The notes below the pieces were generated by a model that was not told the DNA's origin, made no database searches, and worked only from the letters and a program-made list of their open reading frames with translations. Made by a program: the position numbers and the translations under genes. From an archaeon (GTDB lineage Archaea > EX4484-52 > WAPT01), in contig JAPDKB010000004.1 of NCBI GenBank assembly GCA_029258795.1, positions 1-64,000 of the forward strand: a stretch of DNA of 64,000 nucleotides, in the 5' to 3' direction. Below are positions 15,320-42,873 of the stretch, in pieces. Within the stretch, counting starts at the first letter, position 1; the number at the start of each line of letters is the position of its first letter.

Positions 15320-15376
15320 GGCAACAAATATTGATATATCAAAACTTTTATTTAATTTCAGAGCCAAAGAGTAAGC
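15320..15376. promoter_or_regulatory. Shared bidirectional TATA region between polC and coiled-coil gene
   Basis: The A+T block CTTTTATTTAATT at 15345-15357 lies 25-30 bases from both the PolD large-subunit start (minus) and the coiled-coil gene start (plus). It reads TAAATAAAAG on one strand and TTTTATTTAATT on the other, and both genes are then leaderless or nearly so. Confidence 0.5.
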
Positions 15377-15964: not shown

Positions 15965-16024
15965 TGTCGAGTAAAATTGGGGATGGTGTAGGAAACATTT
16001 ATAAATGATGAAATTCGAACATAC

Positions 16025-16315
16025 TTACTGAGGTAATTGCCATGGCGGCTACCCCGAAAACAAAACATTACAGGATGTTCTTTAAGAAGTGGGTAGCCGT
16101 TGGAATGTATCTAATTCCCGGATGCTCCACAGAATAAATCCGGGATGACTCCACATCTCTTCTCATGGGGTGTGGACGACCGGAGGAGGTTGGTGTGCTG
16201 ATCTTCTCGGATGGAATTGATTCGGAGGGTGGGGGTCTGGAGGAGAGAAGGTACACACCCCCCACCGTCCGAGCCCGATTTTCCTCTTTTCCACATGTAG
16301 AAGTGGTGACCCTAA
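16025..16315 (+). ncRNA. Structured RNA of unknown family (about 290 nt)
   Basis: The 450 bases between the coiled-coil gene and the next small ORF have no convincing coding potential but fold strongly. Helices by eye: CGGCTACCC (16046-16054) with GGGTAGCCG (16091-16099); TCCCGGAT (16116-16123) with ATCCGGGA (16138-16145); CCACATC (16151-16157) with GGTGTGG (16169-16175, one G-U); CTCGGA (16206-16211) with TCCGAG (16268-16273), enclosing a G-rich strand (16228-16236) paired to ACCCCCCACC (16257-16266); and CCAC/GTGG (16291-16305). The G-U pair would be A-C on the other strand, favouring plus. TATA-like CATTTATAAATG ends about 25 bases before the start. I see no SRP, RNase P or tRNA signature. 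Ends are approximate. Confidence 0.6.
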
Positions 16316-16416
16316 TATTTTAGACAAACCTACATATAAATTTTTCGGTTAATGGGAAAAATTTCCTAAAATGAAAAAAGAAAAGCTTAAATAAGTTGGA
16401 AGGAATCTCAAACCTT

Positions 16417-16647
16417 ATGCGCGTGTCGATGGTTGAGCTGATTGTGGATGCCAAAATGGAAGATGTGGAAAACGCTTTGAAAAACAGCGAGTTTGTGGAT
16501 GATTTTGAAATAGAACCTCTTGACAAGGAAGACGTGCGAAAAAGCGTGCTGATAGTTTTCAAGGAACTGGTGGATTCCAAATACCTTGATGAGGTTCTGC
16601 GCAAAATCTTTCCGTTTGAGGAGATAAAGAAGGGCTTGGAAGAATGA
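16417..16647 (+). CDS. Small conserved-looking hypothetical protein
   Basis: A 76-residue acidic protein (MRVSMVELIVDAKMEDVENA) that I do not recognise. It has alternating beta-alpha character: a hydrophobic strand, a helix with the acidic run MEDVENALKNSE, then LIVFKELVDSKYLDEVL. It could be a small ferredoxin-like or ACT-like fold, which is a guess. The start at 16417 lies about 25 bases after the TATA-like CTTAAATAAG (16386-16395); an in-frame start seven codons upstream is possible. It converges on the PolD small-subunit gene, whose stop lies three bases beyond. Confidence 0.6.
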   Translation: MRVSMVELIVDAKMEDVENALKNSEFVDDFEIEPLDKEDVRKSVLIVFKELVDSKYLDEVLRKIFPFEEIKKGLEE

Positions 16648-16649
16648 AC

Positions 16650-18122
16650 TCAGTTGTAAAAGTCCAGAACCCTCACTTCTCTCGTGTTTAGCTCGACCAC
16701 AGTCACCTTTCCAGGATTGGCAACATGCCCAACCCTGTCCATAAAGCTGGTTTGTGCCTGGAAGGTTGATGAGCTGATGAGAGTTATGCCCTTGTAGTTA
16801 TCAACACAGTGTGAGTGCAGATCACCTGTATGGAATATATCTGGAACCTTATCTATAACCAGCTGATCATGTTCGTGTGGTGCCTGAATTATACATCCGT
16901 ACGCTGGAGCAAGATGCCTCTTCTTCAGCACTTCCTTCATGACGTATTGTGGGTTTGTGGTGCCGTACTTCCTTATAGGAGTTATCATATCTATAAGGGA
17001 GGTGAAGCTATAGCCGTGATACATTAAAACAAGTATGCCTTTTTCCCCGTCTTTTCTGTGTATTCTGACGTAAGCAGGATTCGTGGCCAGAAAAACGTTG
17101 TTCAGGTGGTAGAGTTCTGGAACAAGCTCTTTGGGTAGAGGTGGTTGTGGCTCCGCGCTCCTCACAGCGTCGTGGTTTCCGGGGCAGAGCACAATAGCTA
17201 TGTGTTCTGGAATCTTTTCCACAAACCTTTCGAGGAGCTCGTACTGCTTATATATGTCCTTCACAACCAAATCATCCTCCTGTTCAGGATATATTCCTAT
17301 GCCATCCACAAGGTCTCCCGCAATGAATAGGTATTTGACAGAAGATGCTATCTTGTCATCCTTATCGTTTATCCATTTCAAAAACCTCCTTTCAATATCC
17401 ACTATGAACTCCTTGCTTCCGAAGTGGAGATCTGAGATGAAAACCGCGGAAACGGGATCACTCACCTTATTTATGTCTGTGGGCAGCGGAACATCGGGAA
17501 AAACTATGTTCGATGCGTAAAAGAAATTTCCATTATAATTACCCCTTAAGCCAATAACCTCATCCTCCAGAACATAATCTCCCAGTTTGGTGGCATCATC
17601 TTTCAAAAAAACATTAACCACGCCTGTCGTGTCCTCCAGTTCAAGAATGTAATTTCCATTTTTGGTTTTCGTTTTTTCACGCACAACCCCGATTATAGCG
17701 GTTTCACCATTCCCCTTAATATCCTTTAACTTTCCTATGGAAACTGCATTCCTCAGTTCTGCGCGCTGCATCAAAATATCTCTTATTTTTTCGTATCTAT
17801 CCTTGAACATCTCAACGAAAAGTTCAACACCTTTTTGGGAAATATTTCCATTTGAGGTGTCTCTGTTCTCAACCTCCACAAAGAAATCATACTCCTCCGC
17901 TTTAACCCTTTTAACCGGCCTTATGACTTCAACCCTCTCTTCATTTCTCACCTCTTCAACCAACGGCTCGAGGTGCTTTCTTGTGAGTACACCCTCCTCT
18001 ATCTCCAAAGAATATATTTTCTCAACAGGAATTCCATGCTCCTTTATGAAATCGAAAGCTGATGGCTCAATGAGAATTCCACGTTCCATCAACTCAAAGA
18101 TCAGCTTCTGTACAGATTCCAT
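16650..18122 (-). CDS. polB: DNA polymerase II (PolD) small subunit DP1
   Basis: The 490-residue proofreading subunit of PolD, with 3'-5' exonuclease activity in a calcineurin-like phosphoesterase domain. An N-terminal helical domain (1-70) is followed by an OB fold (about 115-205, with AIIGVVREKTKTKNGNYILE). The nuclease motifs are FISDLHFGS near 229, AGDLVDGIG near 266, CPGNHDAVR near 314, MYHGY near 369, and FHTGDLHSH near 434. All key Asp and His positions look intact. TATA-like GATTTATAAC precedes the ATG at leaderless spacing. It follows the cdc6 gene by 24 bases on the same strand. Confidence 0.97.
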   Translation of the reverse strand: MESVQKLIFELMERGILIEPSAFDFIKEHGIPVEKIYSLEIEEGVLTRKHLEPLVEEVRNEERVEVIRPVKRVKAEEYDFFVEVENRDTSNGNISQKGVELFVEMFKDRYEKIRDILMQRAELRNAVSIGKLKDIKGNGETAIIGVVREKTKTKNGNYILELEDTTGVVNVFLKDDATKLGDYVLEDEVIGLRGNYNGNFFYASNIVFPDVPLPTDINKVSDPVSAVFISDLHFGSKEFIVDIERRFLKWINDKDDKIASSVKYLFIAGDLVDGIGIYPEQEDDLVVKDIYKQYELLERFVEKIPEHIAIVLCPGNHDAVRSAEPQPPLPKELVPELYHLNNVFLATNPAYVRIHRKDGEKGILVLMYHGYSFTSLIDMITPIRKYGTTNPQYVMKEVLKKRHLAPAYGCIIQAPHEHDQLVIDKVPDIFHTGDLHSHCVDNYKGITLISSSTFQAQTSFMDRVGHVANPGKVTVVELNTREVRVLDFYN

Positions 18123-18146: not shown

Positions 18147-19391
18147 TTATAAATCTAATTCCTGCTTGAGTAAGAGAAGTATTTTGTCGTGTGTTGTTTT
18201 TGAGATGGAGAGTGAGATCTCTCTTGTCCTCCCATACCTGCCTTTAGAGATGACGCTCGCGTTTATTAAGCCCTGGATGTCGAGCTCCGCTATTATGTCT
18301 GAGACACGTCTTTGTGTTAAGGGTCTCAACCCCATCTGCGCACACAACAACTCGTAGCTTTTCTGTATGTCTCCCGTGAGCACGCACTTCTTTCTTTTGA
18401 GCACGGTTAGAATTGCGAAAAGCACCAATTTCGAGTGTTTGGGTAGCACACGTGCTGCTTCAGTCATCCTGTCAAGATCAAGTTTCTCTTCCGCCATATC
18501 TATGTGCTTTTCCTCCACCCTATCATCATTATTCCTTTCAGCGATCTCACCCGCTATCCTTAATAGGTCAAGAGCCCTTCTCGCATCACCATGTTCCTGC
18601 GCTGCCAGAGCAGCACATTTGTTTATGGCTGCTTCATCTATCTTCCCTTCATTGAAAGCAAGCATGGCCCTATCAAAAAGTATGTCCTTAAGCTGTTCAT
18701 AATTATAAGGTGGAAATATGATCTCCTCTTCAGAAAGTGATGATTTGACTCTGGCATCAAGACAATCTATGAATGAAAGGTCGTTTGATATCCCAATTAT
18801 AGATACGTTCACATCGTTTGTTGTTTCACACATCCTTGTGAAATTGTAAAGAAGCTCGTCCCCAACCTTTTTCACAAGAGCGTCAATCTCATCCAGAACA
18901 AGAATGACGTTTCCACCCACTCTTTCCAGCGCGTTATAAAACCTCCTGTAAACTTCATCAGTAGGGAGGCCGGTTGTTGGTATCTCCTCCCCCAACAAAT
19001 TTGCGAGATGTGCTAAAAGCCTGTACTCTGTGTCGGCAACCTTTTTCATCTTGCAGTTGGCAAAGAGAACCCTCAATTTTATATTATGTTTCTCAGCAAA
19101 AGCTTCCAAATTCGAAGTAACGTAAGTTGTTACTAAGGTTTTACCCGTACCAGTCAACCCGTAAATAAATATATTGGATGGCTTTTCATTTCTGAGGACG
19201 GGAGCTAAAATTCTACTAAGTGTGTTGATCTGCTCATCTCTGTGGTAGATCTTCTCTGGTCGGTATTTGATGGAGAGCGCGTCCTTGTTTTTAAAAATAG
19301 ATTCTTTCTTCATGAAATCTTCAAAGAGGTTTTCCAAGGTTTTTTGTGTTGGAGTTGTGTAATGAGATAGTGTTCTCTCCTCCATAAGCAT
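18147..19391 (-). CDS. cdc6: ORC1/Cdc6 origin-binding AAA+ protein
   Basis: A 414-residue initiator that binds origin recognition boxes and loads MCM. AAA+ core: Walker A GLTGTGKTLVTTYV near residue 80, Walker B ILVLDEIDALVKK near 155, sensor 1 IIGISNDLSFIDCLDARVKS near 190, and sensor 2 within GDARRALDLLRIAGE. A C-terminal winged helix (about 325-414) has TQRRVSDIIAELDIQGLI. The ATG at 19391 gives MLMEERTLSHY; an ATG at 19433 is possible but sits in the A+T promoter. The start codon overlaps a degenerate ORB, and two better ORBs lie within 200 bases upstream, a layout typical of archaeal origins and suggesting autoregulation. Confidence 0.96.
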   Translation of the reverse strand: MLMEERTLSHYTTPTQKTLENLFEDFMKKESIFKNKDALSIKYRPEKIYHRDEQINTLSRILAPVLRNEKPSNIFIYGLTGTGKTLVTTYVTSNLEAFAEKHNIKLRVLFANCKMKKVADTEYRLLAHLANLLGEEIPTTGLPTDEVYRRFYNALERVGGNVILVLDEIDALVKKVGDELLYNFTRMCETTNDVNVSIIGISNDLSFIDCLDARVKSSLSEEEIIFPPYNYEQLKDILFDRAMLAFNEGKIDEAAINKCAALAAQEHGDARRALDLLRIAGEIAERNNDDRVEEKHIDMAEEKLDLDRMTEAARVLPKHSKLVLFAILTVLKRKKCVLTGDIQKSYELLCAQMGLRPLTQRRVSDIIAELDIQGLINASVISKGRYGRTREISLSISKTTHDKILLLLKQELDL

Positions 19392-19602
19392 CACATGAAA
19401 TATAGGAAGTGTAGGTGTATTGTAACATCTCAATTAAAAAATTTAAAATAATGGTTTGGGTTGGTGTGAGAGACACTCCTTCATTTCTCATGGAATAGAT
19501 AATTATATTAAGCGATTTTTTATAACAATGTTATATTAAAAAACACATCTAAATACCATTCCATTTGAAATCAAGGGGGCACTCCACTAGAAATGATAAG
19601 AA
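19389..19602. other. oriC: Probable replication origin with ORB-like elements
   Basis: The region between cdc6 and the HTH gene holds several ORB-like sequences. Best is TTCCATTTGAAATCAAGGGG (from 19559, plus strand). A second is on the minus strand: TTCCATGAGAAATGAAGGAG (complement of 19476-19495). Weaker copies are CACATGAAATATAGGAAGTG (19392-19411, plus) and TCCACTAGAAATGATAAG (19583-19600, plus). The two best are in opposite orientation around an A+T-rich stretch (19501-19545) with long A/T runs, a plausible unwinding element. Inverted ORBs around A+T-rich DNA beside cdc6 is the standard archaeal origin plan. Origin function is inferred. Confidence 0.72.
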
Positions 19603-23080: not shown

Positions 23081-24124
23081 TCATTTCAGCGAGAAAAGTG
23101 GTGTGGCTTTGCTCTTCCCAATCAGAAACATCCATTCAACACGAACACCAAACTTACCTTTGAAATAGGCAGCGGGCTCCACAGCAACGACCATATTTTT
23201 CTTGAGGTTGCCGCCTTCCTTAATCAGGGTTGGCGCTTCGTGAACCTCAAGTCCAACACCGTGCCCAAGCGCGTGAAAGTTATGGTATGCTTCTTCCCCA
23301 AACCCACACTCTTTCATCAAGCTTTCAGCATGCTCGCAAAGAGATTTGATCGGCACACCTTCCTTGGCAATTCTTCCCACACTCTCAACCACATGAATTA
23401 AAGAGCTCTTAATCTTCTCAACCTTTTCATCAAGCACAAAAGTGGTGGTGGCATCACTGCAATACCTATCCACCACAACTCCCAAATCGAAAAGCGCAAC
23501 TTTTTTGCAAGTTCTGCCATCCATCTTGCCATGTATGATTGCGCTATTCTCATCATAACACACCAGCGGATTGAAAGCGGGCTCAACCTTCTGCTCTGCC
23601 ATCCATCTCTTTATGGTGTAATAAGCATCCTTATCCTTATACTCCCATAATCGCTCCATTTCAACACTTTTGAAAATTTTTTCAAGGGCTTTACACGCTT
23701 TCTTTATTTTTTTGATCTCACCTTCATCTTTAACCGCTCTTAATTCAGAGAGAATGGGGTTGATGTCAGCACACTTTTTCACACCAAACTTTTTCTTCAC
23801 TTCCATAAACCTGCCGTGGCTCATCGAAAAATCGAGTCCCACAATTTTTGCGCTTTTTACAATCCTCTTTATTGTTTCTAAGCCATCTTTACCCCATCTT
23901 CTGACTTCCCATGGAAAGGATGCTGGCACAGCATCTTCACTTGTGCAAAACAGAACAACGCTATCGCTAGCATAATCCACAAGAAGAGCAGAGTTGAAAT
24001 CAACAGTGTTCGTTAGATAGAACATGTTTGCATCAAAATCATTTGCCAGCAGCACAGCACACTCAATCCCTTTTTCACGCATCTCTGCCATGAATTTTTC
24101 CATTCTGGTTTTTAGGAAATTCAT
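23081..24124 (-). CDS. pepQ: Xaa-Pro aminopeptidase-like M24 metallopeptidase
   Basis: A 347-residue creatinase/prolidase-type enzyme that would release residues next to proline in the cytoplasm. The N-terminal creatinase-like domain (about 1-120) is followed by the pita-bread catalytic domain. Dinuclear metal ligands are visible in ALFDLGVVVDRYCSDATTTF (two Asp), HALGHGVGLEVHE (His), VVAVEPAAY (Glu) and a terminal GVRVEWMF (Glu). Length is normal for prolidases. It lies 11 bases after the radical-SAM gene on the same strand. Aminopeptidase P versus prolidase specificity cannot be told. Confidence 0.9.
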   Translation of the reverse strand: MNFLKTRMEKFMAEMREKGIECAVLLANDFDANMFYLTNTVDFNSALLVDYASDSVVLFCTSEDAVPASFPWEVRRWGKDGLETIKRIVKSAKIVGLDFSMSHGRFMEVKKKFGVKKCADINPILSELRAVKDEGEIKKIKKACKALEKIFKSVEMERLWEYKDKDAYYTIKRWMAEQKVEPAFNPLVCYDENSAIIHGKMDGRTCKKVALFDLGVVVDRYCSDATTTFVLDEKVEKIKSSLIHVVESVGRIAKEGVPIKSLCEHAESLMKECGFGEEAYHNFHALGHGVGLEVHEAPTLIKEGGNLKKNMVVAVEPAAYFKGKFGVRVEWMFLIGKSKATPLFSLK

Positions 24125-24135
24125 CCTAATTACCT

Positions 24136-25500
24136 CTACTCATGTTTTTTGAGCTCCTTCTCTATTATCCTCACCATCTCATCCAGCAAATCTTGATGAA
24201 TGAGCACATCCTTCCTACCCTCATCCTTCAATTTTTTGTAGAGTTTGTGATCAACACAATCCACAACTCTCACACCAACATTTTTGGCAGCGTCCATGAG
24301 GGCTTTATAGGAAAGGGAGTCCGGCTTCAAATATGCAAAGAAAACCTTATACCTCTTCTTCTTTTCCCTCAAATAATTTTCCAGCCTTTCTCTCGTTACT
24401 TCATAATATTCCTTCTGAATCTCCTCCGTCTCTCTCCACTCTTCCCAATCGTAGCTGGTGAACGGATACTCGTTCTCAAACTCACGGGGTATGACTCCTG
24501 CATTGGATATCATGATCTGATGAATCTTAGCGTAATCTTTTAGGCGCATCAACCTGCTTATTATTGCCCTGTGTGTTTTGGATTTGGAGTAGGGCTTTCT
24601 GTACGCACACGGTAGAAAGAGCGCGTATTTTTTAATAGAGGGTGGCTGGTAAACCTTGACTATGTAGTCGTGCCACACATTGAAGTAGGGGTGCACCAAA
24701 TATTCTTTGCCCACACCCTTCAGAAAAACACGATCCTTCTTTGGTATGCGTGGAGGGCACACATAATCATAGTAATACAGTTCAACATCTTCCATCTTCA
24801 TCCCCGTTTGCTTTAACGCTTTCCTCACGATCTCTTCAAACTCTTTTTTTGATAGCGGATGCCACCTGCCCTCCAACCACAGCCTGAAGAGTTCTGTGTT
24901 GGGCCTGGCATACGTGTTCAGTATGGCGATGCTGTCAGCATGTTCTTTACAGAAAAGCAGGGATTTGGCAAGCATTCCTGCTTGATCCTCCACAAAAGGC
25001 AAATTCACCATGATGTATGCGCGCACCCTCCCGCCAAACTTCCTTATGATTTTAGAAGCTTCAACGAACTCCTTTGTTCTGAATGGCTTGTTGATCTTTG
25101 CCATTATTTTATCATCAGCAACCTCCAGCCCTATGGCAAAACTGACCTCAACTCCCTTTTCTTTAGCATAATTTAGAAGTTCCACAACCTCCTTCTCTTT
25201 CATCACAACATGTTGTGGCAGTACCTCAACCACCACCTCCCTAATGCCCGTTTCCGCTGCAATATCTATCATCTTCGTCCTGAACTCTTTAGGTATCTGG
25301 TTTTCATCCAGAAAACTACCTGAATTGAAGAACTTAAGCACTTCAGCATCACTCACTCTTTCAACTTTTTCCCTGACCTCTTTCTCAAGCTCTTCACAGC
25401 TTTTCTTTCTACTCTCCTTCCACCCAAAAGGACAGAAAATACACCTTCCCCAAGAGCACTTACCGCTTGTCGTTATCACCACAATTTCCTTTTTCTTCAT
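24136..25500 (-). CDS. Archaeosine synthase: radical-SAM RaSEA-like domain fused to ArcS-type domain
   Basis: A 454-residue protein with two parts. Residues 1-270 form an Elp3-like radical-SAM domain with cluster cysteines C15, C20 and C23 (CSWGRCIFC) and VVVEVLPQHVV, the TIGR01210/RaSEA type. Residues 285-450 resemble the ArcS core domain: LFLPCAYRKPYSKSKTHR (compare the PCS-KPYS-S-SH signature), VIPREFENEYPFTSYDWEEW, then a Rossmann-like tail. ArcS attaches lysine to preQ0-tRNA and RaSEA cleaves the adduct to give archaeosine at G15 of tRNA. They are separate proteins in Thermococcus; here they appear fused. The arcTGT gene is divergent next door. The fusion reading is my inference from motifs. 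Confidence 0.75.
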   Translation of the reverse strand: MKKKEIVVITTSGKCSWGRCIFCPFGWKESRKKSCEELEKEVREKVERVSDAEVLKFFNSGSFLDENQIPKEFRTKMIDIAAETGIREVVVEVLPQHVVMKEKEVVELLNYAKEKGVEVSFAIGLEVADDKIMAKINKPFRTKEFVEASKIIRKFGGRVRAYIMVNLPFVEDQAGMLAKSLLFCKEHADSIAILNTYARPNTELFRLWLEGRWHPLSKKEFEEIVRKALKQTGMKMEDVELYYYDYVCPPRIPKKDRVFLKGVGKEYLVHPYFNVWHDYIVKVYQPPSIKKYALFLPCAYRKPYSKSKTHRAIISRLMRLKDYAKIHQIMISNAGVIPREFENEYPFTSYDWEEWRETEEIQKEYYEVTRERLENYLREKKKRYKVFFAYLKPDSLSYKALMDAAKNVGVRVVDCVDHKLYKKLKDEGRKDVLIHQDLLDEMVRIIEKELKKHE

Positions 25501-25553
25501 GCATTATCGCTTTTCACCAAACCTTTAATAATTTCCTGAGAAAAACCAACCTT

Positions 25554-27284
25554 ATGTTCGAGATAAAGGAGAGGGAAGGGCTGGCAAGAATTGGAAAGTT
25601 CAGGGTCAACGGAAAAACGCTGGAAACACCAACCATCTTTGTGGTGTACAATCCGAACATTCCAACGGTAAAGCCCGAGGAAATAAAAAAACTCGGGTTA
25701 CCTCTCATCACCAGCTCCTACATTCTGTGGAAAACAAGGAAAGAGGAGGTTGAAAAAAAAGGCCTACACAACTTTCTTAACTTCGATGGTGTGGTGATGA
25801 CGGATAGTGGAGCATTTCAAGCATTTCAGTACGGAGACGTTGACCTAACAAACGAAAGCGTCATAGAGTTCCAGAAAAGAATAGGATCTGACATAGGAGT
25901 CATTCTTGACCTAATAGTCGGGATGGAGGAGGATGTTGAAAAAGCGAGGGGTATGGTTGAGGAAACCATAAGGAGAGCAAGAGAACTCTTCGAGCTCGGA
26001 AAGGGCAAAACTTTGTGGGCCGGTCCAATTCAGGGTGGAAAACACACCGAGCTAATCAAACTTTGTGCCAGAGAAATGGAAAAAATGGATTTTGACCTTT
26101 TTTGCATAGGGAGTGTTGTTCCCGCATTGGATAATTATTGGTTTGATATCGTGGTCAACCAGATTCTCACAGCGAAACAACACTTACCCTTTAACAAGCC
26201 AGTCCACCTCTTTGGCGCGGGACATCCGATAATCTTCAGCTTGGCTGTTCTGCTCGGCATAGACCTTTTCGATAGCGCTTACTACGCTCTTGCGGCAAAA
26301 CGTGGAAAGTATCTTCTTCAGTCAGGCCAGGTTCTGGACGTTAGCTCCATGAGTGACGTTGCATGCACATGCCCGATATGCACCTCCCACTCCATAAAAG
26401 AGTTTGGAGAGAAGGAGCTTGCGCTTCACAACCTTCACGTTATAGCTGAAGAGATGAAGACGATCAAGCAGGCGATACGTGAAGAGAGGTTGTGGGAGCT
26501 CGTGGAACAGAGGATAAGAGCACACCCCTCAATGGTAAAAGCATACGTGGAGTTAAGAAACTACAAAAAGTTCTTGGATAAGTTTGAACCTGCATCACGA
26601 AAACGCGGAACCTTCTATTTCGATAGGCTTAGCGAGATAAGACCTGTTTTCAGAGTGGCAGCCTCTCGTTTAAAACGGGTGGAAAGCAAAAAGAAGTTCA
26701 GATGGCTAAGGTGGGATGTGCCAGCAGAACTTAAACACACCTATCCGTTCGGACAGACGGTGTTCCCCCACACGATGATAGGGAAGGATGATGAAGCTAA
26801 AGCCATATCCCAGACAGAAGCCAGAAACATTGTGGTAAAAATTGTGCAATACCAATATGGAATTGATACCACATCCATTCTCAATTCTGAAGATGTGAAT
26901 GTGGAGATCTCAAAATCAACAGGTAGGATAAGGAGGGTTTACAAATCCTCCAAATTGCTGGGCACGATAAGAGCTCAGGACGGACTCTTCATCCCAACAC
27001 TCGAATTTTTCAAACTGACCAAAGAGTTGTTCAACAACACCTATTCGATATGGGTTGATAAAGAAGCCGAAGAGTTCGTGAAATCAGGCAGGAATGTCTT
27101 TGCAAAGTTTGTGGTGAAAGCATCCTCAAACATAAGGGTCGGGGATGAAGTCATGGTGCTGAACAAAAATGACGAGCTGATAGCTTGCGGCACAGCTCTG
27201 ATGACTCCCTTAGAAATGTCACAGTTCAAAAGAGGCGCTGCCGTTAACGTCAGGGATTACCTTCACAAGGATAGAGCTTCTTGA
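25554..27284 (+). CDS. tgtA: tRNA-guanine(15) transglycosylase (archaeosine)
   Basis: A 576-residue arcTGT that swaps guanine 15 of tRNA for preQ0, the first archaeosine step on tRNA. The catalytic TIM barrel (about 1-340) has VVMTDSGAFQAFQYGD (catalytic Asp near 85) and the zinc site CTCPICTSHSIKEFGEKELA with a later His. C-terminal C1/C2 domains follow and a PUA domain ends the protein (about 500-576, AEEFVKSGRNVFAKFVV to FKRGAAVNVRDYL). The start at 25554 is about 27 bases after TATA-like CTTTAATAATTT; a 29-codon upstream extension overlaps the divergent gene. Full-length form, as in Pyrococcus. Confidence 0.96.
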   Translation: MFEIKEREGLARIGKFRVNGKTLETPTIFVVYNPNIPTVKPEEIKKLGLPLITSSYILWKTRKEEVEKKGLHNFLNFDGVVMTDSGAFQAFQYGDVDLTNESVIEFQKRIGSDIGVILDLIVGMEEDVEKARGMVEETIRRARELFELGKGKTLWAGPIQGGKHTELIKLCAREMEKMDFDLFCIGSVVPALDNYWFDIVVNQILTAKQHLPFNKPVHLFGAGHPIIFSLAVLLGIDLFDSAYYALAAKRGKYLLQSGQVLDVSSMSDVACTCPICTSHSIKEFGEKELALHNLHVIAEEMKTIKQAIREERLWELVEQRIRAHPSMVKAYVELRNYKKFLDKFEPASRKRGTFYFDRLSEIRPVFRVAASRLKRVESKKKFRWLRWDVPAELKHTYPFGQTVFPHTMIGKDDEAKAISQTEARNIVVKIVQYQYGIDTTSILNSEDVNVEISKSTGRIRRVYKSSKLLGTIRAQDGLFIPTLEFFKLTKELFNNTYSIWVDKEAEEFVKSGRNVFAKFVVKASSNIRVGDEVMVLNKNDELIACGTALMTPLEMSQFKRGAAVNVRDYLHKDRAS

Positions 27285-27606
27285 TTATCATCTCCCCATC
27301 ATAACTCACTTCTCCTTCTGCACAAATACAAACTACATCCATATTGCCTGCATCCACTTTTGAAAAAACAACACCTTCCAAACAGCGCGAACCATTACCG
27401 AAAAACACGATTCTTGAATATCTCGAATAAGCATAAACTTTTGCTTCACCACACACCTTTATGTAATTCTCTCTGCGCTCCTCAGCGAGATCACATGGCT
27501 TCATAACCTCAACTTTCATGAATTCACCAACCAGAACGAGCATCACACATAAAATAAGGAAGATGATCACGATGGTTTTATCCGTGAAGTTCACGTTAAC
27601 CTTCAC
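27250..27606 (-). CDS. Membrane-anchored small protein, possible OB fold
   Basis: A 118-residue protein with an N-terminal signal-anchor helix (IVIIFLILCVMLVLVGEF, about 12-29) and an extracytoplasmic domain of about 85 residues with four to five cysteines (C38, C52, C75, C92/94, C114). The strand-rich pattern KVCGEAKVYAYSRYSRIVFF then GVVFSKVDAG recalls small OB-fold domains of archaeal secreted proteins, a tentative reading. It overlaps the 3' end of tgtA by 35 bases on the opposite strand and overlaps the 3' end of the 2'-5' ligase-like gene by 11 bases in the same direction, so it probably belongs to that operon. Confidence 0.7.
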   Translation of the reverse strand: MKVNVNFTDKTIVIIFLILCVMLVLVGEFMKVEVMKPCDLAEERRENYIKVCGEAKVYAYSRYSRIVFFGNGSRCLEGVVFSKVDAGNMDVVCICAEGEVSYDGEMIIKKLYPCEGNP

Positions 27607-28183
27607 GTTTATCTACCTGCCCACCCAATTTGTATTCGTGGAGTTTAACGTAAACCGGACCATCGTGCTTCAAAATGCTTTCGTAAAGCGAAGCGTTGTT
27701 TATAGTGAATTTGAGCTTCGGTATCTCAACCCCCTTAATTAGTTCAGCTAACTTTTCCCTATCATTAACGCTTTTCACTCTCGCCAAAGTTATGTGAGGT
27801 ATGTAACTTCTTTCTTTACTGAACCCCAATTTGGTCATGTTCACGTCAACTTCACGCATCAACTCTTCAATCATGTTATTCGATTCTATGCCTATCCAGA
27901 CAACTCTCACGTACTTTTCATTAGGGAACACTCCGAGCTTTGCGTGAAGTTCACATGAAATTTCACGTTTATTTGAGAATAGGGTTGTTAGTTCTTCATG
28001 AATCTTTAGGATGCTGCTCTCACCCACGTTGCCCAGAAATTTCAGGGTTACGTGCATGTTGTCTTTTTTCACGAACTTCACGTTTCCTACACGATTAACT
28101 TCACGTGTAAAATTTCTTACAGCACCCACAATGCTCTCCTTCACATCCTCCGGAATATCCAGAGCTATGAAGCACCTCTTCAT
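27596..28183 (-). CDS. thpR: RNA 2',3'-cyclic phosphodiesterase (LigT/ThpR family)
   Basis: A 195-residue 2H phosphoesterase that would open 2',3'-cyclic phosphates on RNA, including tRNA halves. The two HxT motifs are HVTLKFLGNVGE near residue 44 and HITLARVKSV near 140, the standard spacing. The N-terminus MKRCFIALDIPEDVKESI is typical of the family. Length is normal. A downstream overlapping gene encodes a membrane-anchored protein; the divergent gene upstream is an AAA ATPase. An RNA 3'-phosphate cyclase lies elsewhere in the window (41.8 kb), so RNA-end processing is represented twice. Confidence 0.93.
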   Translation of the reverse strand: MKRCFIALDIPEDVKESIVGAVRNFTREVNRVGNVKFVKKDNMHVTLKFLGNVGESSILKIHEELTTLFSNKREISCELHAKLGVFPNEKYVRVVWIGIESNNMIEELMREVDVNMTKLGFSKERSYIPHITLARVKSVNDREKLAELIKGVEIPKLKFTINNASLYESILKHDGPVYVKLHEYKLGGQVDKREG

Positions 28184-28273
28184 GAACAGAGCAAAACCTT
28201 TTCAAAAATTTAAATCTTTCTGCTGCTTAATATCCATACTTCTACCTTTACGTGAACTTAACATTAACTTCAG

Positions 28274-29341
28274 GTGAAATTCATGAGTGATGCTAGGGCA
28301 TCATGGTACTCTCGGTTTGGGTGGAGCAGGAACCCATTCACTCTTGAGATAAAACCCCATCTTTTCGTGGGTCACAGGAAGGAGATAGAGGAGCTCGTTT
28401 CTGCCATAAACGATGGTGAGAAGTTCATCTTGGTCACAGGACCCACAGGAGCGGGCAAAACAACACTGTTGAAATGGTTGAGCACACAGCATTTCTCCCT
28501 TTATTTTCCCAAACCCCCCTCAAACAAAGACGAGCTGGTTGATGTGTTCAGGGAGAATGTTCTTAAACCATCCTTATTGGAGAGGATTTTCAGAAAAAAC
28601 ACGCTGAACATATACAACCTTCCGGAGAAATTCATGAAGAAACACAAGAACAAGAAGTTTCTCTTGCTGGTGGACGAAGCTCACGAATCCGAAGTCTCCA
28701 TAATGGAATGGTTGAGGAGCATAGGCGATCAGATAGATAATTGCGTTACAATCTTCGCAGGACTACCAAAACTCAGAGAAACAACACTGAAACAACTCGA
28801 AACCCTGAACCAGCGATTCACGATGGAGATGGAACTCAGCACCTTGACCAAAGATGAGATGATAGAGCTTGTGCGCAAAAGGATAGAGGATGCGGGTGGT
28901 AAAGGAATCGAACCGTTCACTTATGAGGCGCTCGAGCTAATTTACAAACACACAGGTGGATTTCCGAGAGAAGTTCTTAAACTATGTAATCAATTGATAA
29001 ATGAGGCGATAAAGCGCAACTCATATGTCATAGATGGGAGCTTCTTCAAGTTTGATGCTGAGGAGGAAGAGAAGATAAACCCGTCTTTGGAACTTGAAAG
29101 CTTGACCGACAAACAGAGAGAAATTGTGGAGCTCATAGCAAGAAATGATGGATTAACACCGACAGACATAGTTGAGATGATAGACACCACATCTTACAAA
29201 ACCAAGATGCACGCTTTACGTGCCGTAAACAACATTCTCAGGCGGCTGGAGAGAGATGGGATGGTGGTGAGGAGAAAAAAGGGCAGGACTTATGTGTACG
29301 AGGTGACACCAAAAATAAAGAGTTTGTTTGTCGAATCGTGA
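28274..29341 (+). CDS. AAA ATPase, ExeA/Orc-like, with C-terminal winged helix
   Basis: A 355-residue ATPase. Residues 10-30 (WYSRFGWSRNPFTLEIKPHL) resemble the N-terminus of ExeA/TniB-type ATPases. Walker A is LVTGPTGAGKTTLLKWL near 54, Walker B is FLLLVDEAHESE near 130, and an arginine-rich sensor region follows (NQRFTMEMELSTLTKDEM). A winged helix (about 285-350) has SLTDKQREIVELIARNDGLT and LRRLERDGMVVRRKKGRTY. The plan is like Orc1/Cdc6 but the sequence is closer to ExeA, so origin binding is not implied. It overlaps the DUF92 gene by four bases (ATGA), suggesting co-expression. Function unknown. Confidence 0.85.
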   Translation: MKFMSDARASWYSRFGWSRNPFTLEIKPHLFVGHRKEIEELVSAINDGEKFILVTGPTGAGKTTLLKWLSTQHFSLYFPKPPSNKDELVDVFRENVLKPSLLERIFRKNTLNIYNLPEKFMKKHKNKKFLLLVDEAHESEVSIMEWLRSIGDQIDNCVTIFAGLPKLRETTLKQLETLNQRFTMEMELSTLTKDEMIELVRKRIEDAGGKGIEPFTYEALELIYKHTGGFPREVLKLCNQLINEAIKRNSYVIDGSFFKFDAEEEEKINPSLELESLTDKQREIVELIARNDGLTPTDIVEMIDTTSYKTKMHALRAVNNILRRLERDGMVVRRKKGRTYVYEVTPKIKSLFVES

Positions 29342-30024
29342 TGGGTGGTGTCATGCTGCTCTTTTTTGTGTCATTGCTTTTCGTTGCCATTCTATCCATC
29401 ATAACTCTCAAAAAGAAGGCCTTTGATTACATCGCTGTGCTGATTTCCGCGCTTTTTGGTGTTATTGTGATAAATTTGCGTGGAGTGCGATGGTTTTCAG
29501 TGATGCTCATTTTTTTGGTGGTTGCGCTGTATGCAACCTATTTTGGTAAAGCGAAAAAGGACATGAACCATGAAAAGAAGAGAGGAGCTGACAACGTAAT
29601 ATCCAACGGGTTGGTTGCATTCGTGGCCGCAATTCTTAACCTACCCTACATGTTTGCCGGCAGTTTGGCTGCCGCTCTCTCAGACACGATGAGCTCCGAG
29701 ATAGGAATCCTATCCAAATCTGATCCCATGCTCATAATCAATCCACGAAAGAGAGTGCCGAAAGGCACGAATGGTGGGGTTAGTCCTCTGGGCTTGCTTG
29801 CGGGAGCGGTTGGTGCATTACTCATGGGTATTGCTTCCTCCATCTTAATCCTGAACGGAGACCCAACTACCACCATCCTAATCTCTTTTGCTGGGTTTTC
29901 GGGGAATATACTGGATAGTTTGCTGGGTTTGGTGGAGAATAAGGGCAAACTTTCAAACGGCAGCGTTAACTTCTTAGCAACCCTGTTTGGAGGGGTGGTG
30001 GCGACGTTTACATCATATTATTAA
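29338..30024 (+). CDS. DUF92 family integral membrane protein
   Basis: A 228-residue polytopic protein of the DUF92/TMEM19 family, related to the plant phytyl-phosphate kinase VTE6. Signature segments are GADNVISNGLVAFVAAI near 81, AALSDTMSSEIGILSK near 117, INPRKRVPKGTNGGVSPLG near 139, and GFSGNILDSLLG near 193. Six or seven hydrophobic spans are visible. Plant relatives phosphorylate phytyl phosphate; the archaeal role is unknown and could involve polyprenyl phosphates. Its ATG overlaps the AAA-ATPase stop. Confidence 0.88.
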   Translation: MMGGVMLLFFVSLLFVAILSIITLKKKAFDYIAVLISALFGVIVINLRGVRWFSVMLIFLVVALYATYFGKAKKDMNHEKKRGADNVISNGLVAFVAAILNLPYMFAGSLAAALSDTMSSEIGILSKSDPMLIINPRKRVPKGTNGGVSPLGLLAGAVGALLMGIASSILILNGDPTTTILISFAGFSGNILDSLLGLVENKGKLSNGSVNFLATLFGGVVATFTSYY

Positions 30025-30061
30025 ATTTTTGGAATCAAAAGTGATAAGAGGTGATGAGGTT

Positions 30062-30328
30062 ATGTTCAAGGAGCAGAGGTTGAGAGGTAGGGACATAATA
30101 GGTAAGGTTGTGGTTAGTGATGAGACAGGCAGCAAATTTGGCATAGTGGAGGATGTAACATTCATAGCGGAGACGGGAGAGCTACTTAATCTATTGCTGG
30201 TTGAACCCACAAAATCCGCGAGAGAAGCCAACATTCAGCAGGATGAGAATGGTAGGTACATAATTCCATTTTCAGCAGTTAAAAGTGTTGGCGACTTTGT
30301 CATAGTCAGCGAGAAAGACCTTTTCTGA
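30062..30328 (+). CDS. PRC-barrel domain protein
   Basis: An 88-residue protein made of a single PRC-barrel: FKEQRLRGRDIIGKVVVSDE, then TGSKFGIVEDVTFIAETGEL, ending DFVIVSEKDLF. Archaeal stand-alone PRC-barrels have been linked with RNA metabolism and, in haloarchaea, cell division; no role can be set from this sequence. The ATG at 30062 follows AGAGGTGATGAGG, which fixes the start; the open frame extends upstream into the DUF92 gene. It ends two bases before the RadA stop on the other strand. Confidence 0.9.
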   Translation: MFKEQRLRGRDIIGKVVVSDETGSKFGIVEDVTFIAETGELLNLLLVEPTKSAREANIQQDENGRYIIPFSAVKSVGDFVIVSEKDLF

Positions 30329-30330
30329 CT

Positions 30331-31281
30331 TCATCTTATACCTTCAGGAGTCACCCTGAAAACAGCTTCACCATCTGGCAAGTATGGTGAGTCCACAAGC
30401 TTTGCTATTCTCTTGTCTCCTTTACTCTTTCTCAGATAGATTCTGAATGTGGCCGCATGGTATAAAACATGACCTCCCACAGCTTCTGTTGGATCACCGA
30501 ACAACACATCTGGCTTAGCCATGACTTGATTGGTTATGTACACCACACAGTTGTATGTGTCCGCTATCCTTTGCAGTGTGTGGAGATGCTGATTCAGTTT
30601 TTGCTGTCTCGTTGCAAGAGCACCCCGCCCAACATACTCTGAACGGAAGTGGGAGGTGAGGGAGTCAACCACAACAAGCTTTATGTTGTACTCCTTTATC
30701 ACATCCTTGGCTTTCTCAACCAGCAGTATCTGGTGGTCTGAATTGTAAGCCCTACCCACAAATATGTTCTCCAGCGTTTTTTTCGGATCAAGACCCAGAG
30801 CATTTGCCATCTGCTCTATTCTCTCAGGCCTGAACGTGTTTTCCGTATCTATGAAGAGAGCATTTCCGTTAAGCCCACCCTTCTCTTTTGGAAGTTGAAC
30901 GTTGACCGCAAGCTGATGAGCCAGCTGTGTTTTCCCGCTTCCATAAGCGCCATAACATTCTGTTATTGCCTGCGTTTCCAACCCACCATGGAACAGAGCG
31001 TCAAGCTCTTTGCTTCCAGTGGTTAACTTATTCACACTCTTCCTCTTTTCGAGAACATTCAGCCCTGTTTCAAAACCCATATCTAAAGCATTTCTGGCGG
31101 CAGCTATTATTCTGGATGCAACACCCTCTCCAATTTCAGCAACTGCAGCTATTTCAGCTGGAGATGCTGTAGCTATTACCATCAAATCATTGTATCCAGC
31201 TTCCGCAAGTTTCTCAGCTATCTTTGGGCCGACGCCCGGCAAATCCTCCACATTTTTTATTTTGTTTTCCGCCACATTCAT
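30331..31281 (-). CDS. radA: DNA recombinase RadA
   Basis: A 316-residue RecA/Rad51-family strand-exchange protein. The N-terminal helix-hairpin-helix domain (about 1-60) has [20 protein letters not shown]. Walker A is [17 protein letters not shown] near 109, Walker B is [19 protein letters not shown] near 205, and the L2 region contains [18 protein letters not shown]. The segment [20 protein letters not shown] is the polymerisation linker. Length is that of archaeal RadA, and no intein is present. Its ATG overlaps the RPA stop (ATGA), so RPA and RadA are made together, matching their joint work on single-stranded DNA. Confidence 0.97.
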
Positions 31282-32315
31282 CCACCCACTTCAACGGCTT
31301 TTTCCACCTCCTCCAGCACCTTTTTCAGCAATGATGTGTAATTCACATCATCAACCCTGGTCACCACAAGCTCCACAAAATCGTTGATATCGCTTTCTTT
31401 TAACAAACCTCTAACCACAACCTCCTTTCCTATCAATCTCACGACGTGCTCTTCAAAAAATCTTTTCTCACCCATGATTTTAATTTTTTCCTCAATTTCA
31501 TCCACACTCATGTTGAGCAGTGCTTCGACATTCTTTCTGAAAGCCACAAAATTGACAGCAGCAGTACCATCGTCCACAACACCACTTAAAACGAGGAATC
31601 TATCTGGCTTAACTTCACCATGATTTTCACACTTGCCTTCATTGAGCTTGGTTTTACATGTGGGACACAGGTAATGGAGCACAGGCCTTTCAAACACCAA
31701 TGAAATTGCACATCTGCACGTTACGGCATCACCAACTTTTGCATCAATCAAATCAACTTCCTTATACTCTCTTTTTTTGGGCTCTTCTCCATCCCTAACA
31801 TACCCTTCAGGCACGGAAATGTCCACACCTTCAACCTTCCTTATATTACCCTGTCTGCCAACTCTAACCTCCACTCCAGCAAAATCATCCTCGCGAGTGT
31901 AACCATTCAAAATCTCAATCACATCCCCCTCATTAATGTTGTTGAGAAGCTCAACCTTTTCATTCCACACGGAGACGCGCACCACCCCACTATCATCTCC
32001 AACAAGCAGATTAACAACTTTGCCCGCTCCACCATTCTTCTTGTTGAATTCATGTGAAGAATAGATTCTGATGACTTTCACCCTCAAGTTCACCTGATTC
32101 AGGCCGGGTATCAAATTCTCAACCTTGAGAATTTTCGGCTTTTTCTCCACCAAATCCACACCAAGCTCCTTACCCACGATTATTATCGCTCCAGCCCTTG
32201 ACACCAGCCCTCCAAATTCTTCCAGTTTCTCTTCCACTTTTTTGAGAAGCTCCTCTCTGCTGATCTGGGCGTTCTCCACTATTTTGTTTATCATTTCTTC
32301 CTCGCTCAACTCCAT
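31278..32315 (-). CDS. rpa: Replication protein A (single-strand DNA-binding)
   Basis: A 345-residue archaeal RPA. An N-terminal helical segment (about 1-55) leads to an OB fold (65-165: [40 protein letters not shown]) and a second OB fold interrupted by a zinc finger (about 195-300: CRCAIS, then [20 protein letters not shown] and [20 protein letters not shown]). This is the RPA41-like plan. It protects single-stranded DNA in replication and recombination. It is upstream of radA with a four-base overlap. Confidence 0.94.
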
Positions 32316-39834: not shown

Positions 39835-40458
39835 ATGGGTTTGCTCTCCTTCCTTTTTGGAAATAAAAAAGTGGAGAAAGACGTAGAAGAACTTAAAAAT
39901 TCTATGGAATCTTTTAAAGATGACATCAAAAATTTTGCTTTCTCGCTCGCAAAGATGAACGAAAAGATAGTTGAGTTAAATGAAAAGTTTGATGATGAGA
40001 TTGAACAGATTTACGAGAGAATTTCTGAAATTGAAGAAAAAATTAGCATATTGGCTAAATCCACTCGTGTTGGTGTGGAGGCAAAGAAAGAGCTGAAGGA
40101 AGTGAGGGAACAGCTGAGCAAGCTGATTCAAAAGAAAAAGGAAATTAAGAGGGAAAAGCCCGTTCAAGAGATTAATACGGAGGAAACAAGTAAAGTGCAG
40201 GAAATACATGCCTCTGTGAAAGAGGAAATGAGAATGCTGTCTCCTGCTGAAAGAGAAATCCTTTCCGCCTTGCTTTCTTCCGAAATTCCTCTGAGCTACG
40301 AAGAAATAGCCCAGCTTACGGGTAAATCCACAAGTACTGTTAGAGACCATATGAACAACATAAGGAAAAAAACAAATTTGCTGGAAGTGGTAGAAACTCC
40401 GGACAGAAAGAAGCTGTTTAGGATAGCGGTCAAAGCGAAGCAGGAGATCATATTGTAG
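39835..40458 (+). CDS. Coiled-coil protein with C-terminal winged helix-turn-helix
   Basis: A 207-residue protein. It opens MGLLSFLFGNKKVEKDVEEL, like the coiled-coil protein at 15377. A long coiled coil spans about 15-110 (MNEKIVELNEKFDDEIEQIY). A charged linker follows, and a DNA-binding winged helix ends the protein at about 135-207: LSPAEREILSALLSSEIPLS, then YEEIAQLTGKSTSTVRDHMN and LFRIAVKAKQ. It could bind DNA through the C-terminus and oligomerise or anchor through the N-terminus. Immediately downstream lies an 11-bp-phased palindrome array, a candidate binding site. I do not recognise a named family; function unknown. Confidence 0.8.
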   Translation: MGLLSFLFGNKKVEKDVEELKNSMESFKDDIKNFAFSLAKMNEKIVELNEKFDDEIEQIYERISEIEEKISILAKSTRVGVEAKKELKEVREQLSKLIQKKKEIKREKPVQEINTEETSKVQEIHASVKEEMRMLSPAEREILSALLSSEIPLSYEEIAQLTGKSTSTVRDHMNNIRKKTNLLEVVETPDRKKLFRIAVKAKQEIIL

Positions 40459-40461
40459 TTC

Positions 40462-40651
40462 TATCGAAATTTTCGACACATCTTCGACAGACATTCGACA
40501 CATCTTCGACACTGTCGAAATTTTCGACACATAAAAAAGCACAAGCAAAAGATGCTTTGCACATCTGTGTCGAATAACTGTCGAAATTTTCGACACATCT
40601 TCGACAGACATTCGACACATCTTCGACAGACATTCGACACATCTTCGACAC
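40462..40651. repeat. Array of 11-bp-phased TCGACA boxes and palindromes
   Basis: Three copies of the 17-bp inverted repeat TGTCGAAATTTTCGACA (first copy with one change) lie at 40462-40478, 40513-40529 and 40579-40595. Each right half continues or can continue as direct CGACA boxes at exact 11-bp steps: 40474, 40485, 40496, 40507; then 40525; then 40591, 40602, 40613, 40624, 40635, 40646. Another inverted TGTCGA at 40568 is 11 bases from the one at 40579. A 22-bp unit is made of two alternating 11-mers, CGACACATCTT and CGACAGACATT. An AAGCA/TGCTT hairpin (40544-40558) splits the array. It lies between two convergent genes. Possible multimer-binding site, centromere-like site or double-sided terminator. 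Confidence 0.9.
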
Positions 40652-40718: not shown

Positions 40719-41807
40719 TTACCTTGTGATTTCAACATTCTTTATGAACTCGTAAAGCTCCCTTGCTTTCTTGTTCTTTTCGAAGTGCTCTCTTATCGGT
40801 TTTATGAGCTTTTCCAGATGCGCTGCCACAGCCATCTTCAGATCAAGCGGGTGGAGCTTGCCCTCTCTATAATCCCCTTCAACCTCCTCGTACGAGCCAT
40901 AAACAACGTCTCCTCCGAACTTCTCCGGACGCTCAACCTTGAACTCATCAAACGCTCTGAAAATTATGTGCTTGACGTAATCCATAATCGGATTGTCCTC
41001 AACAACCTTTTCAGGACAGTACGCCTTCCTTATCTTTCTCACGATCTCCTCGCAGCTATCATGAACAAATATGGCTGAATCGGGCTTGCTCTTGCTCATT
41101 TTGGAAGAAATTTCCTTATCTATTTTCTTGTTTTCATCATACCCTTCTCCCTCCTTTGGCCCTTCCAGCCCCATCAGGATATGGTGGCTGACAACTACTG
41201 GCTTTTTCCACCCAAGCTTATCAGCCATCTCCCTTGCAAGCATGTTCACTTTCCTCTGATCCATCCCAAGCTGGCATATGTCAACATCAAGATGGAACAC
41301 GTCAGCACACTGCATTGAAGGATAGAATAGGAATGCCGTCGGATTGTTCTCTCTCCCAACTCTTCCCGCCACCGTCAAACATCTCATGCCCCGCTGAATT
41401 GTGTGGTTTTTCGCTATTAAAATAACCTTTTTCCAGTATTCTGGATCATCAAAATGCTCTTTATGCCACACAACATCAACCTTATTCATGTCAACTCCCG
41501 CAGCTTTCCATACCTCCAGAAAGTATTCTCCACACTTCCTTATTTTTTCAATATCTCCTCCCAGCTTGTTGTTTATCCATGCAAAGCTGTCCGCAAGCAA
41601 AAGCTTGAAGTGCACACCCGCCTTCATGAGATCCCTGAGCAGAAGGGGTCGAAAAACACCAACAGGCAGATGCGCTATACCACTCGGCTCAAAACCATCA
41701 TAAGCCACAATCCTATCTTTCGTTTCAACAAGCTCCCTGAGCTCTTTTTCCGTCACAATCTCTTCTCCCACGCCCGCTATGAGCTGGAAGCGCGTCTCCG
41801 CATCCAT
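40719..41807 (-). CDS. tyrS: Tyrosyl-tRNA synthetase, archaeal type
   Basis: A 362-residue class Ic synthetase that charges tRNA-Tyr. The HIGH equivalent is FEPSGIAHLPVGVF near residue 40 and the KMSKS loop is SSKMSKSKPDSAIFVHD near 223. QLGMDQRKVNMLAREMADKL is the tyrosine-binding region. The short archaeal/eukaryotic form lacks the S4 domain. The start at 41807 (MDAETRFQLI) is 26 bases after TATA-like AATTTAAAGTG read on the minus strand; an in-frame start at 41849 would cross that promoter. It converges with the coiled-coil wHTH gene across the repeat array and is divergent from rtcA. Confidence 0.96.
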   Translation of the reverse strand: MDAETRFQLIAGVGEEIVTEKELRELVETKDRIVAYDGFEPSGIAHLPVGVFRPLLLRDLMKAGVHFKLLLADSFAWINNKLGGDIEKIRKCGEYFLEVWKAAGVDMNKVDVVWHKEHFDDPEYWKKVILIAKNHTIQRGMRCLTVAGRVGRENNPTAFLFYPSMQCADVFHLDVDICQLGMDQRKVNMLAREMADKLGWKKPVVVSHHILMGLEGPKEGEGYDENKKIDKEISSKMSKSKPDSAIFVHDSCEEIVRKIRKAYCPEKVVEDNPIMDYVKHIIFRAFDEFKVERPEKFGGDVVYGSYEEVEGDYREGKLHPLDLKMAVAAHLEKLIKPIREHFEKNKKARELYEFIKNVEITR

Positions 41808-41847
41808 AAGGTTATGGTTAAGTACTTTACACTTTAAATTTGTTGTC

Positions 41848-42873
41848 ATGATCGAGATTGACGGGAGTTATGGTGAGGGCGGAGGCCAGATAGTTCGGGC
41901 TGCCATGGCTTATTCCTGCCTTACGGGCCAGCCCACAAGAATATTTAACATACGGGCTAAGCGTTCCAATCCCGGGTTAAGGAAGCAACACGCAACAGCG
42001 ATAAAAGTGCTCGCAAATTTATTCAAGGCGGAGGTTGAGGGAGTAAGCGTTGGAAGCAAGGAGGTGACTTTCAAACCCGGGAGTGAGGTGAGGAGTGGTA
42101 ACTTCACTTTTGAAATAGGTAGTGCGGGCTCAATAACTCTGGTTCTTCAGAGCGTTACCTTCGCTTTGATAGGAAGAAAGTGCAAAATAACTCTCACAAT
42201 CAAGGGAGGTACAGATGTGCCCTTCTCCCCAACCTTTGATTATTTCAAGCACTGCTATCTAGCATTACTCTCACGTTTTGGGTACGAGGCAAGCGCTGAA
42301 GTGGCGAGGCGCGGCTATTATCCGGAAGGCGGAGGGGAAGTGAAGTTCACGTTTAGGAAGCATGAACCCCAGCCAATATTGATGAACGATTGTGAAGAAG
42401 ATTTAAAGGTATTCCGCGTGCTCGCTTCCGCTTCCAGCAACCTGCAGAAAGGCAGAGTATGTGAGAGAACGATAAATTCCGCTATTCACCACATCCTGAA
42501 GAACTTTGGAGAGGTGAAGGTTGAGACATGCAGACACTACTCTCAAACCCGATCCACTGGAGCAGCACTTTGTATAGTCGGTTCCGGCGGGGAAAGAATG
42601 ATCGGCGTTGATTTGCTCGGGAAGAGAGGTCTCCCCTCAGAAGAAATCGGGAAGAGGTGTGTTGAACTCATAAAAAATGAAAGTAAAAGTGGGGCATGTG
42701 TGGATTTTCATCTTGCTGACCATCTGGTTCCTTTTCTAGCAACTTGTGGTGGAGAAATAAAAACTTCTCATATAACGGAGCACACCAAGACGATGGTCTG
42801 GCTTGCCAACAGATTCATGGATGGATGCTTGAAAATAGAGGGGAACTTGATAAAATCATTAAATAAGGGTTAG
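41848..42873 (+). CDS. rtcA: RNA 3'-terminal phosphate cyclase
   Basis: A 341-residue RtcA that turns RNA 3'-phosphates into 2',3'-cyclic phosphates using ATP through a covalent AMP-histidine. Family motifs are IDGSYGEGGGQIVRAAMAYS at residues 4-23, KRSNPGLRKQHATAIK near 40, FEIGSAGSITLVLQ near 90, KGGTDVPFSPTFDY, and the adenylated histidine in KTSHITEHTKTMVWLANRF near 310. Length is standard. The start at 41848 follows the divergent tyrS promoter; an in-frame start at 41779 would lie inside tyrS. Partner RtcB is not in this window. Confidence 0.95.
   Translation: MIEIDGSYGEGGGQIVRAAMAYSCLTGQPTRIFNIRAKRSNPGLRKQHATAIKVLANLFKAEVEGVSVGSKEVTFKPGSEVRSGNFTFEIGSAGSITLVLQSVTFALIGRKCKITLTIKGGTDVPFSPTFDYFKHCYLALLSRFGYEASAEVARRGYYPEGGGEVKFTFRKHEPQPILMNDCEEDLKVFRVLASASSNLQKGRVCERTINSAIHHILKNFGEVKVETCRHYSQTRSTGAALCIVGSGGERMIGVDLLGKRGLPSEEIGKRCVELIKNESKSGACVDFHLADHLVPFLATCGGEIKTSHITEHTKTMVWLANRFMDGCLKIEGNLIKSLNKG

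Follow-up and report, generated by a model that had tools for sequence, protein, structure and literature searches.

Plasmid centromeres such as tubC and parC consist of short direct repeats arranged in arrays. In the type III (TubR-tubC) and type II (ParR-parC) systems a small DNA-binding protein assembles a nucleoprotein complex on the centromeric site, and TubR has a winged-helix fold (PMC9178275). In archaea, AspA from the Sulfolobus plasmid pNOB8 is a winged-helix protein that binds a centromere and spreads from there along the DNA (PMC5120986). The centromere-like sites of ParABS lie near the replication origin (PMC7333895), and the Bacillus subtilis protein Noc carries an N-terminal amphipathic helix with a weak membrane affinity that needs assembly of the nucleoprotein complex (PMC4331003). 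Archaea outside the SegAB lineages pose the question of how sister chromosomes are found and separated, and the DPANN archaea have hardly been studied in this respect; among open-licence papers, a search on the subject brought up only work on SegC.

Here we analyse a window of 64,000 nucleotides from a DPANN archaeon (contig JAPDKB010000004.1) in which a phased repeat array and the winged helix-turn-helix (wHTH) gene beside it look, from their sequences, like a previously undescribed chromosome-anchoring (centromere-like) site. Searches of open-licence papers returned no description of the array or of the protein pair, and no matching family was found. Compact, and with gene and array together near the probable origin, the locus is a directly testable candidate.

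The array spans positions 40462–40651 (190 bp) and, read directly from the sequence, consists of 14 TTCGACA boxes, eleven direct and three reverse, mostly at exact 11-bp steps, in two blocks. On the + strand the direct boxes start at 40472, 40483, 40494, 40505, 40523, 40589, 40600, 40611, 40622, 40633 and 40644, the exceptions to the 11-bp step being the 18 bp from 40505 to 40523 and the gap between the blocks; boxes in reverse orientation lie at 40513, 40568 and 40579. Block 1 (40462–40529, + strand), which is conserved in the two other genomes of the genus, G001 and G002, opens with the imperfect palindrome TATCGAAATTTTCGACA at 40462–40478 (one mismatch), which leads into the first four direct boxes, and closes with a perfect palindrome, TGTCGAAATTTTCGACA, at 40513–40529. 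The spacer that follows (40530–40565) contains a run of six A (T6 on the tyrS strand), has diverged and is not conserved in the alignment with G001. Block 2 (40566–40651, + strand) holds the reverse boxes 40568 and 40579, a second perfect copy of TGTCGAAATTTTCGACA at 40579–40595 and six direct boxes (40589–40650) at exact 11-bp steps, built on a 22-bp unit, TTCGACA-CATC-TTCGACA-GACA, with a 100% match over 2.8 copies (TRF). A preliminary description had counted eleven direct CGACA boxes; the number and the steps hold, its positions (40474 and onwards) being those of the CGACA part of TTCGACA, but the three reverse boxes must be added, and that at 40568 had gone unlisted. Palindromes do mark the left end of a block at 40462 and 40579, as it said, but the one at 40513 closes block 1. 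CRISPR loci have repeats of about 24–37 bp separated by unique spacers, and with units of 11 or 22 bp and no spacers the array was rightly set apart from them.

The most frequent 7-mer occurs 12 times in the 400 bp that hold the array, while some 843 other real 400-bp windows from the same genus never exceed 4 copies of any 7-mer, and the array is therefore not a product of chance. A search for TGTCGA-N5-TCGACA with at most one mismatch found four places in the 1.17-Mb genome (96.3% complete), three of them within the array, and every exact TTCGACA-N4-TTCGACA pair of the genome also falls there. The array is the sole one in this genome.

The putative array-binding protein is encoded immediately to the left, at 39835–40458 on the + strand, and the convergent neighbour on the other side is tyrS, tyrosine–tRNA ligase, at 40719–41849 on the − strand (NF006330 above cut-off), which confirms the earlier placement of the array between convergent genes. 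The protein has 207 amino acids and begins with a hydrophobic and basic motif, MGLLSFLFGNKK. AlphaFold2 predicts (mean pLDDT 87) a long helix of about 100 residues (4–105), a disordered flexible linker and a C-terminal winged helix-turn-helix (117–206). Pfam and NCBIfam gave only generic HTH/wHTH matches, and the best Foldseek matches to the wHTH domain were MepR, NolR and MarR-family proteins (E ~1e-4), which gives it a MarR/ArsR-type fold.

The gene for the replication initiator Orc1/Cdc6, a marker of the probable origin, lies 21 kb from the array at 18147–19433 on the − strand (NF001625 and TIGR02928 above cut-offs). It adjoins the gene for the small subunit of DNA polymerase II (PolD; 16650–18122, −), and the large subunit is encoded at 11852–15532 (−). 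From the Cdc6 and PolD genes, the 11.9–19.4 kb that they span is the likely origin region; no clear origin position emerged independently from GC skew in the window contig or in two further genomes, G271 and G288, at whose loci the arrays are weak, so that a genome-wide ranking of arrays there is uninformative. Between the PolD genes lies a coiled-coil reading frame without a wHTH domain (15377–15964, +) whose N-terminal motif, MVFGFLFGKKE, is that of the wHTH protein and which is a possible partner or a relic of a second paralogue. In G002 an N-terminal-only match (G002:C14:4351–4713) is situated 2.7 kb from Cdc6. The non-coding stretch at 15965–16380, beside the PolD and Cdc6 genes, contains hairpin-like segments (GCGGCTACCCCG...GGGTAGCCG) and is possibly an unrecognised structured RNA or an origin element; no Rfam family was detected in it, and a lax scan of 15960–16660 gave chance-level matches only.

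The proximity to Cdc6 extends well beyond the genus. The wHTH locus and Orc1/Cdc6 share a contig in 58 of the 92 tabulated genomes, with a median gap of 6.2 kb (no more than 10 kb in 46 of them, 35 kb or less in 57), although genomes within a phylum are related, so that these counts are not independent and the linkage should be read as conserved synteny rather than as 58 separate events. Weak matches to the wHTH domain alone (for example in G066, G087, G127 and G260) are on contigs other than that of Cdc6. For a centromere role, the preliminary description had expected one or a few near-origin copies, and it had named hundreds of arrays at unrelated 3′ ends as the opposing outcome. The former is what we find, and not the latter: a single array 21 kb from Orc1/Cdc6 and PolD and a homologous locus near Cdc6 in dozens of genomes.

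The same proximity also speaks for the strongest of the rival readings, replication control, in which the wHTH protein would be an initiator or regulator of the iteron type that cooperates with Orc1/Cdc6, and the array would serve initiation, handcuffing or copy control as an accessory element of the origin. Plasmid iterons are direct repeats bound by a winged-helix protein, and the 22-bp direct-repeat unit with its winged-helix neighbour resembles them; in most genomes with both on one contig the locus is near Cdc6. In 57 of the 58 one-contig genomes the distance however varies between 1.5 and 32 kb, with no fixed place, and Orc1/Cdc6 is present as an ordinary initiator. Neither Pfam nor NCBIfam detected a replication-initiator domain in the wHTH protein, and the boxes vary between genera. 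We consider replication control unlikely.

In the window's phylum, homologue genes of other genera are followed immediately on the 3′ side by repeated boxes of other sequence (AATCGATTAA, GATACTA, ACATAAC and TGTTGTA), and at least five copies of a box are present in 7 of 10 homologue 3′ flanks compared with 2 of 467 control windows (p = 4e-12), while the 5′ flanks and coding sequences of these homologues are at background, with 2–3 copies of any 7-mer. Two members, L175 and L182, lack a strong array in the 400 bp 3′ of the gene; at L175 a weaker array lies further downstream, and L182 is cut by the contig end. At 773–1003 in L175 (G033:C33), downstream of the complete gene, the wHTH domain occurs a second time in truncated form, with the box cluster beyond it, which looks like a partial duplication.

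In a second DPANN phylum the protein commonly occurs as a pair of paralogues. Homologues were matched at E 1e-8 in 135 of 279 sampled genomes, about half having none, and where two matches are listed for a genome they are nearly always adjacent, in 41 convergent and 4 tandem pairs; all 28 loci taken from that search are convergent pairs. Each second-phylum locus spans 3.5 kb, most of it occupied by the two genes, and for this reason the placement of arrays within these loci was not used as evidence. The two paralogues can be told apart by their recognition helices and by their half-sites: type A genes (SSIRDY/H) contain 49 TTCGACA sites and 2 TTGGACA, and type B genes (STIRGQ/H) 52 TTGGACA sites and 1 TTCGACA, with gene-level Fisher p values of 1e-3 and 2e-4. 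Of the 31 genes of each type, 12 of type A and 14 of type B contain the exact half-site; other members carry repeats of GACAGACA or of AAACACC/AACACCT. A hydrophobic and basic N-terminus is found in 31 of 31 type B proteins, in 1 of 31 type A proteins and also in the window protein.

The half-sites often fall within coding sequence, in several genes in more than one reading frame, and they exceed the numbers expected from synonymous-codon shuffles (49 against 6.5 for type A, 52 against 8.1 for type B). Taken together, the excess and the use of several frames make selection on the DNA likely, while the boxes of L229 and of many type B genes mostly keep to the reading frame of the protein, so that repetition at the protein level accounts for part of the coding arrays. 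The recognition helix of the window protein, TSTVRDH, has the RD[HY] motif of type A, and its box is also that of type A, an agreement that is suggestive rather than proof. Comparative evidence gives strong support to the adjacent winged-helix protein, suspected earlier, as the putative partner of the boxes. Two nearly identical half-sites, TTCGACA and TTGGACA, each tied to one of two paralogues, would make a neat protein–DNA recognition system, and it would be unusual for a binding protein to have its array inside its own coding sequence.

Sites that are always at the gene, and a protein whose nearest folds are MarR/ArsR-type regulators, could also indicate an operator for ordinary autoregulation by the wHTH protein. 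Within 300 bp upstream of the 31 type B genes AAACACC occurs 51 times and TGTTTAA 83 times, which suggests some autoregulation there. In the window's phylum, however, the boxes are 3′ of the gene and the 5′ flanks are at background level, their number reaches 14, far above what an operator needs, and the proximity to the origin would be left unexplained. Autoregulation as the reason for the array is a rather improbable reading, more so than replication control.

The convergence of the flanking genes also allows the boxes to be read as hairpins in the 3′ ends of two transcripts, acting as a two-way terminator or as a stability element. The 202-nt RNA folds better than 200 of 200 shuffled sequences (z = −6.7), but its centroid structure is nearly empty, which means that many alternative pairings compete. 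A terminator scan found no terminator-like site, and the boxes of the relatives L176, L178 and L181 all point one way and cannot form these hairpins; in other genomes the boxes are within coding sequence. The hairpin terminator, one of the options of the preliminary description, was rejected on these grounds, and no known RNA family was matched. Any RNA element here is very improbable.

The behaviour of the array within the genus bears on the last alternative. It is held between the same two genes in G001 and G002, with the two-block layout and the block core TCGAAWTTTTCGACACAWCTTCGACAGACATTCGACACAWCTTCGACA kept, while the alignment shows that the spacer between the blocks has diverged; the array of G002 is split across the ends of two contigs. 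Over the same distance the wHTH proteins have drifted, those of these genomes being only about 48–49% identical to that of the window.

A protein-blind search of some 85,000 genomes for runs of three TTCGACA boxes spaced 11 bp apart returned 98 stretches, most of them bacterial REP-like or plain tandem repeats, so that the number of matches is no evidence in itself and only the archaeal subset is informative. This subset has five members, the two genus mates and three loci from another DPANN phylum (L052, L096 and L137), and all three of the latter arrays are in or beside the gene of a coiled-coil/wHTH homologue, inside the coding sequence in L052 and L137. In L137 the boxes encode residues 73–93, within a linker predicted to be disordered (59–94). 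Two small genes precede the type A gene at L096:2600–3353 and L137:3293–4103, one of about 143–148 amino acids with no known family and one HTH-like of 89 amino acids. Elsewhere, the related viral contigs L143, L145, L149, L151–L153, L156, L163 and L165 share a phased TTTTCGACACCC array downstream of AATTGTTCTAAT; L046, L058, L070, L073, L114 and other Niastella BIN41 loci have a REP-like element, CCTTCGACAAGCTCAGGGTGACAGC, the left arm of which recurs at 11-bp intervals at numerous sites in a single genome; and L126 from Legionella gresilensis (NZ_CAAAHX010000007.1, 24001–32000) has a four-box array, TTCGACACATATTCGACACGCCTTCGACACGTATTCGACACGC, much like that of the window. That the array is a functionless 11-bp tandem repeat or the remnant of a mobile repeat, as such bacterial TTCGACA arrays might suggest, is hardly credible given its single copy per genome, a two-block layout that the genus has preserved despite divergence of the spacer, archaeal matches that are all at one gene family, and half-sites that are specific to each paralogue.

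We propose, with moderate confidence, that the array is the cognate site of the adjoining coiled-coil/wHTH protein and that the two together make up a centromere-like or tethering locus near the origin in DPANN archaea. The wHTH domains, carried on long coiled-coil rods, would settle next to each other along a single face of the helix, at direct boxes 11 bp apart and at inverted boxes 10 bp apart, and cooperative filling of the array in this way would gather the rods into a dense nucleoprotein cluster. The N-terminal hydrophobic and basic motif, multiplied by the clustering, could then fasten the origin region to the membrane or to some other partner, and this tethering would place sister origins apart. 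A partition site or anchor had been among the first suggestions for the array; the single copy near the origin agrees with it, and in this reading the protein would bind the boxes, polymerise, and segregate or anchor the DNA. Somewhat more tentatively, and with the balance slightly against it, the locus may belong to an undescribed origin-proximal centromere system seen in two DPANN phyla, with one or two coiled-coil/wHTH proteins per chromosome, each having an array of its own half-site 3′ of or inside its own gene. The gene itself would then be the centromere, and the array sequence would change between lineages along with the protein.

Compared with the described systems, the locus has the feature general to centromere-like sites, one or a few copies near the origin, as far as the origin can be placed from the Cdc6 and PolD genes. 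It lacks the features of SegAB and ParABS that were tested, having no linked ParA-like gene, no ParB homology and no scattered sites. SegB, encoded with the ParA-like SegA, binds dozens of TCTAGA-type palindromes at many places across the Sulfolobus chromosome, whereas here the box is TTCGACA, in one array at one locus per genome, with no ATPase linked to it; no ParA-like ATPase gene was found beside the locus, and in the 16 genomes with a PF13614 match the matches lie either tens to hundreds of kb off or on a different contig. Unlike ParABS, the protein showed no ParB homology and no clamp-forming CTPase domain in domain searches. Noc is likewise a DNA-binding protein, and the hydrophobic and basic N-terminus of the type B and window proteins may bind membrane as its amphipathic helix does; Noc is however a ParB homologue with sites scattered round the chromosome, whereas the present protein combines a coiled coil with a wHTH domain and has a single array near the origin. 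The partners of AspA are ParB and ParA, and its site is one 23-bp palindrome that lies upstream of its own gene; the present locus has many 7-bp boxes, is chromosomal and has no linked ParA that we could find. With TubRZC and ParMRC it shares a short direct-repeat array beside the gene of the binding protein, and it differs from them in that no TubZ or ParM gene was seen among those flanking the array, in its chromosomal and origin-proximal position, in a protein with a long coiled coil and a hydrophobic N-terminus, and in boxes that can be intragenic. By analogy, the array and its protein may work like TubR-tubC, ParR-parC, AspA or SegB (PMC9178275, PMC5120986, PMC12284271).
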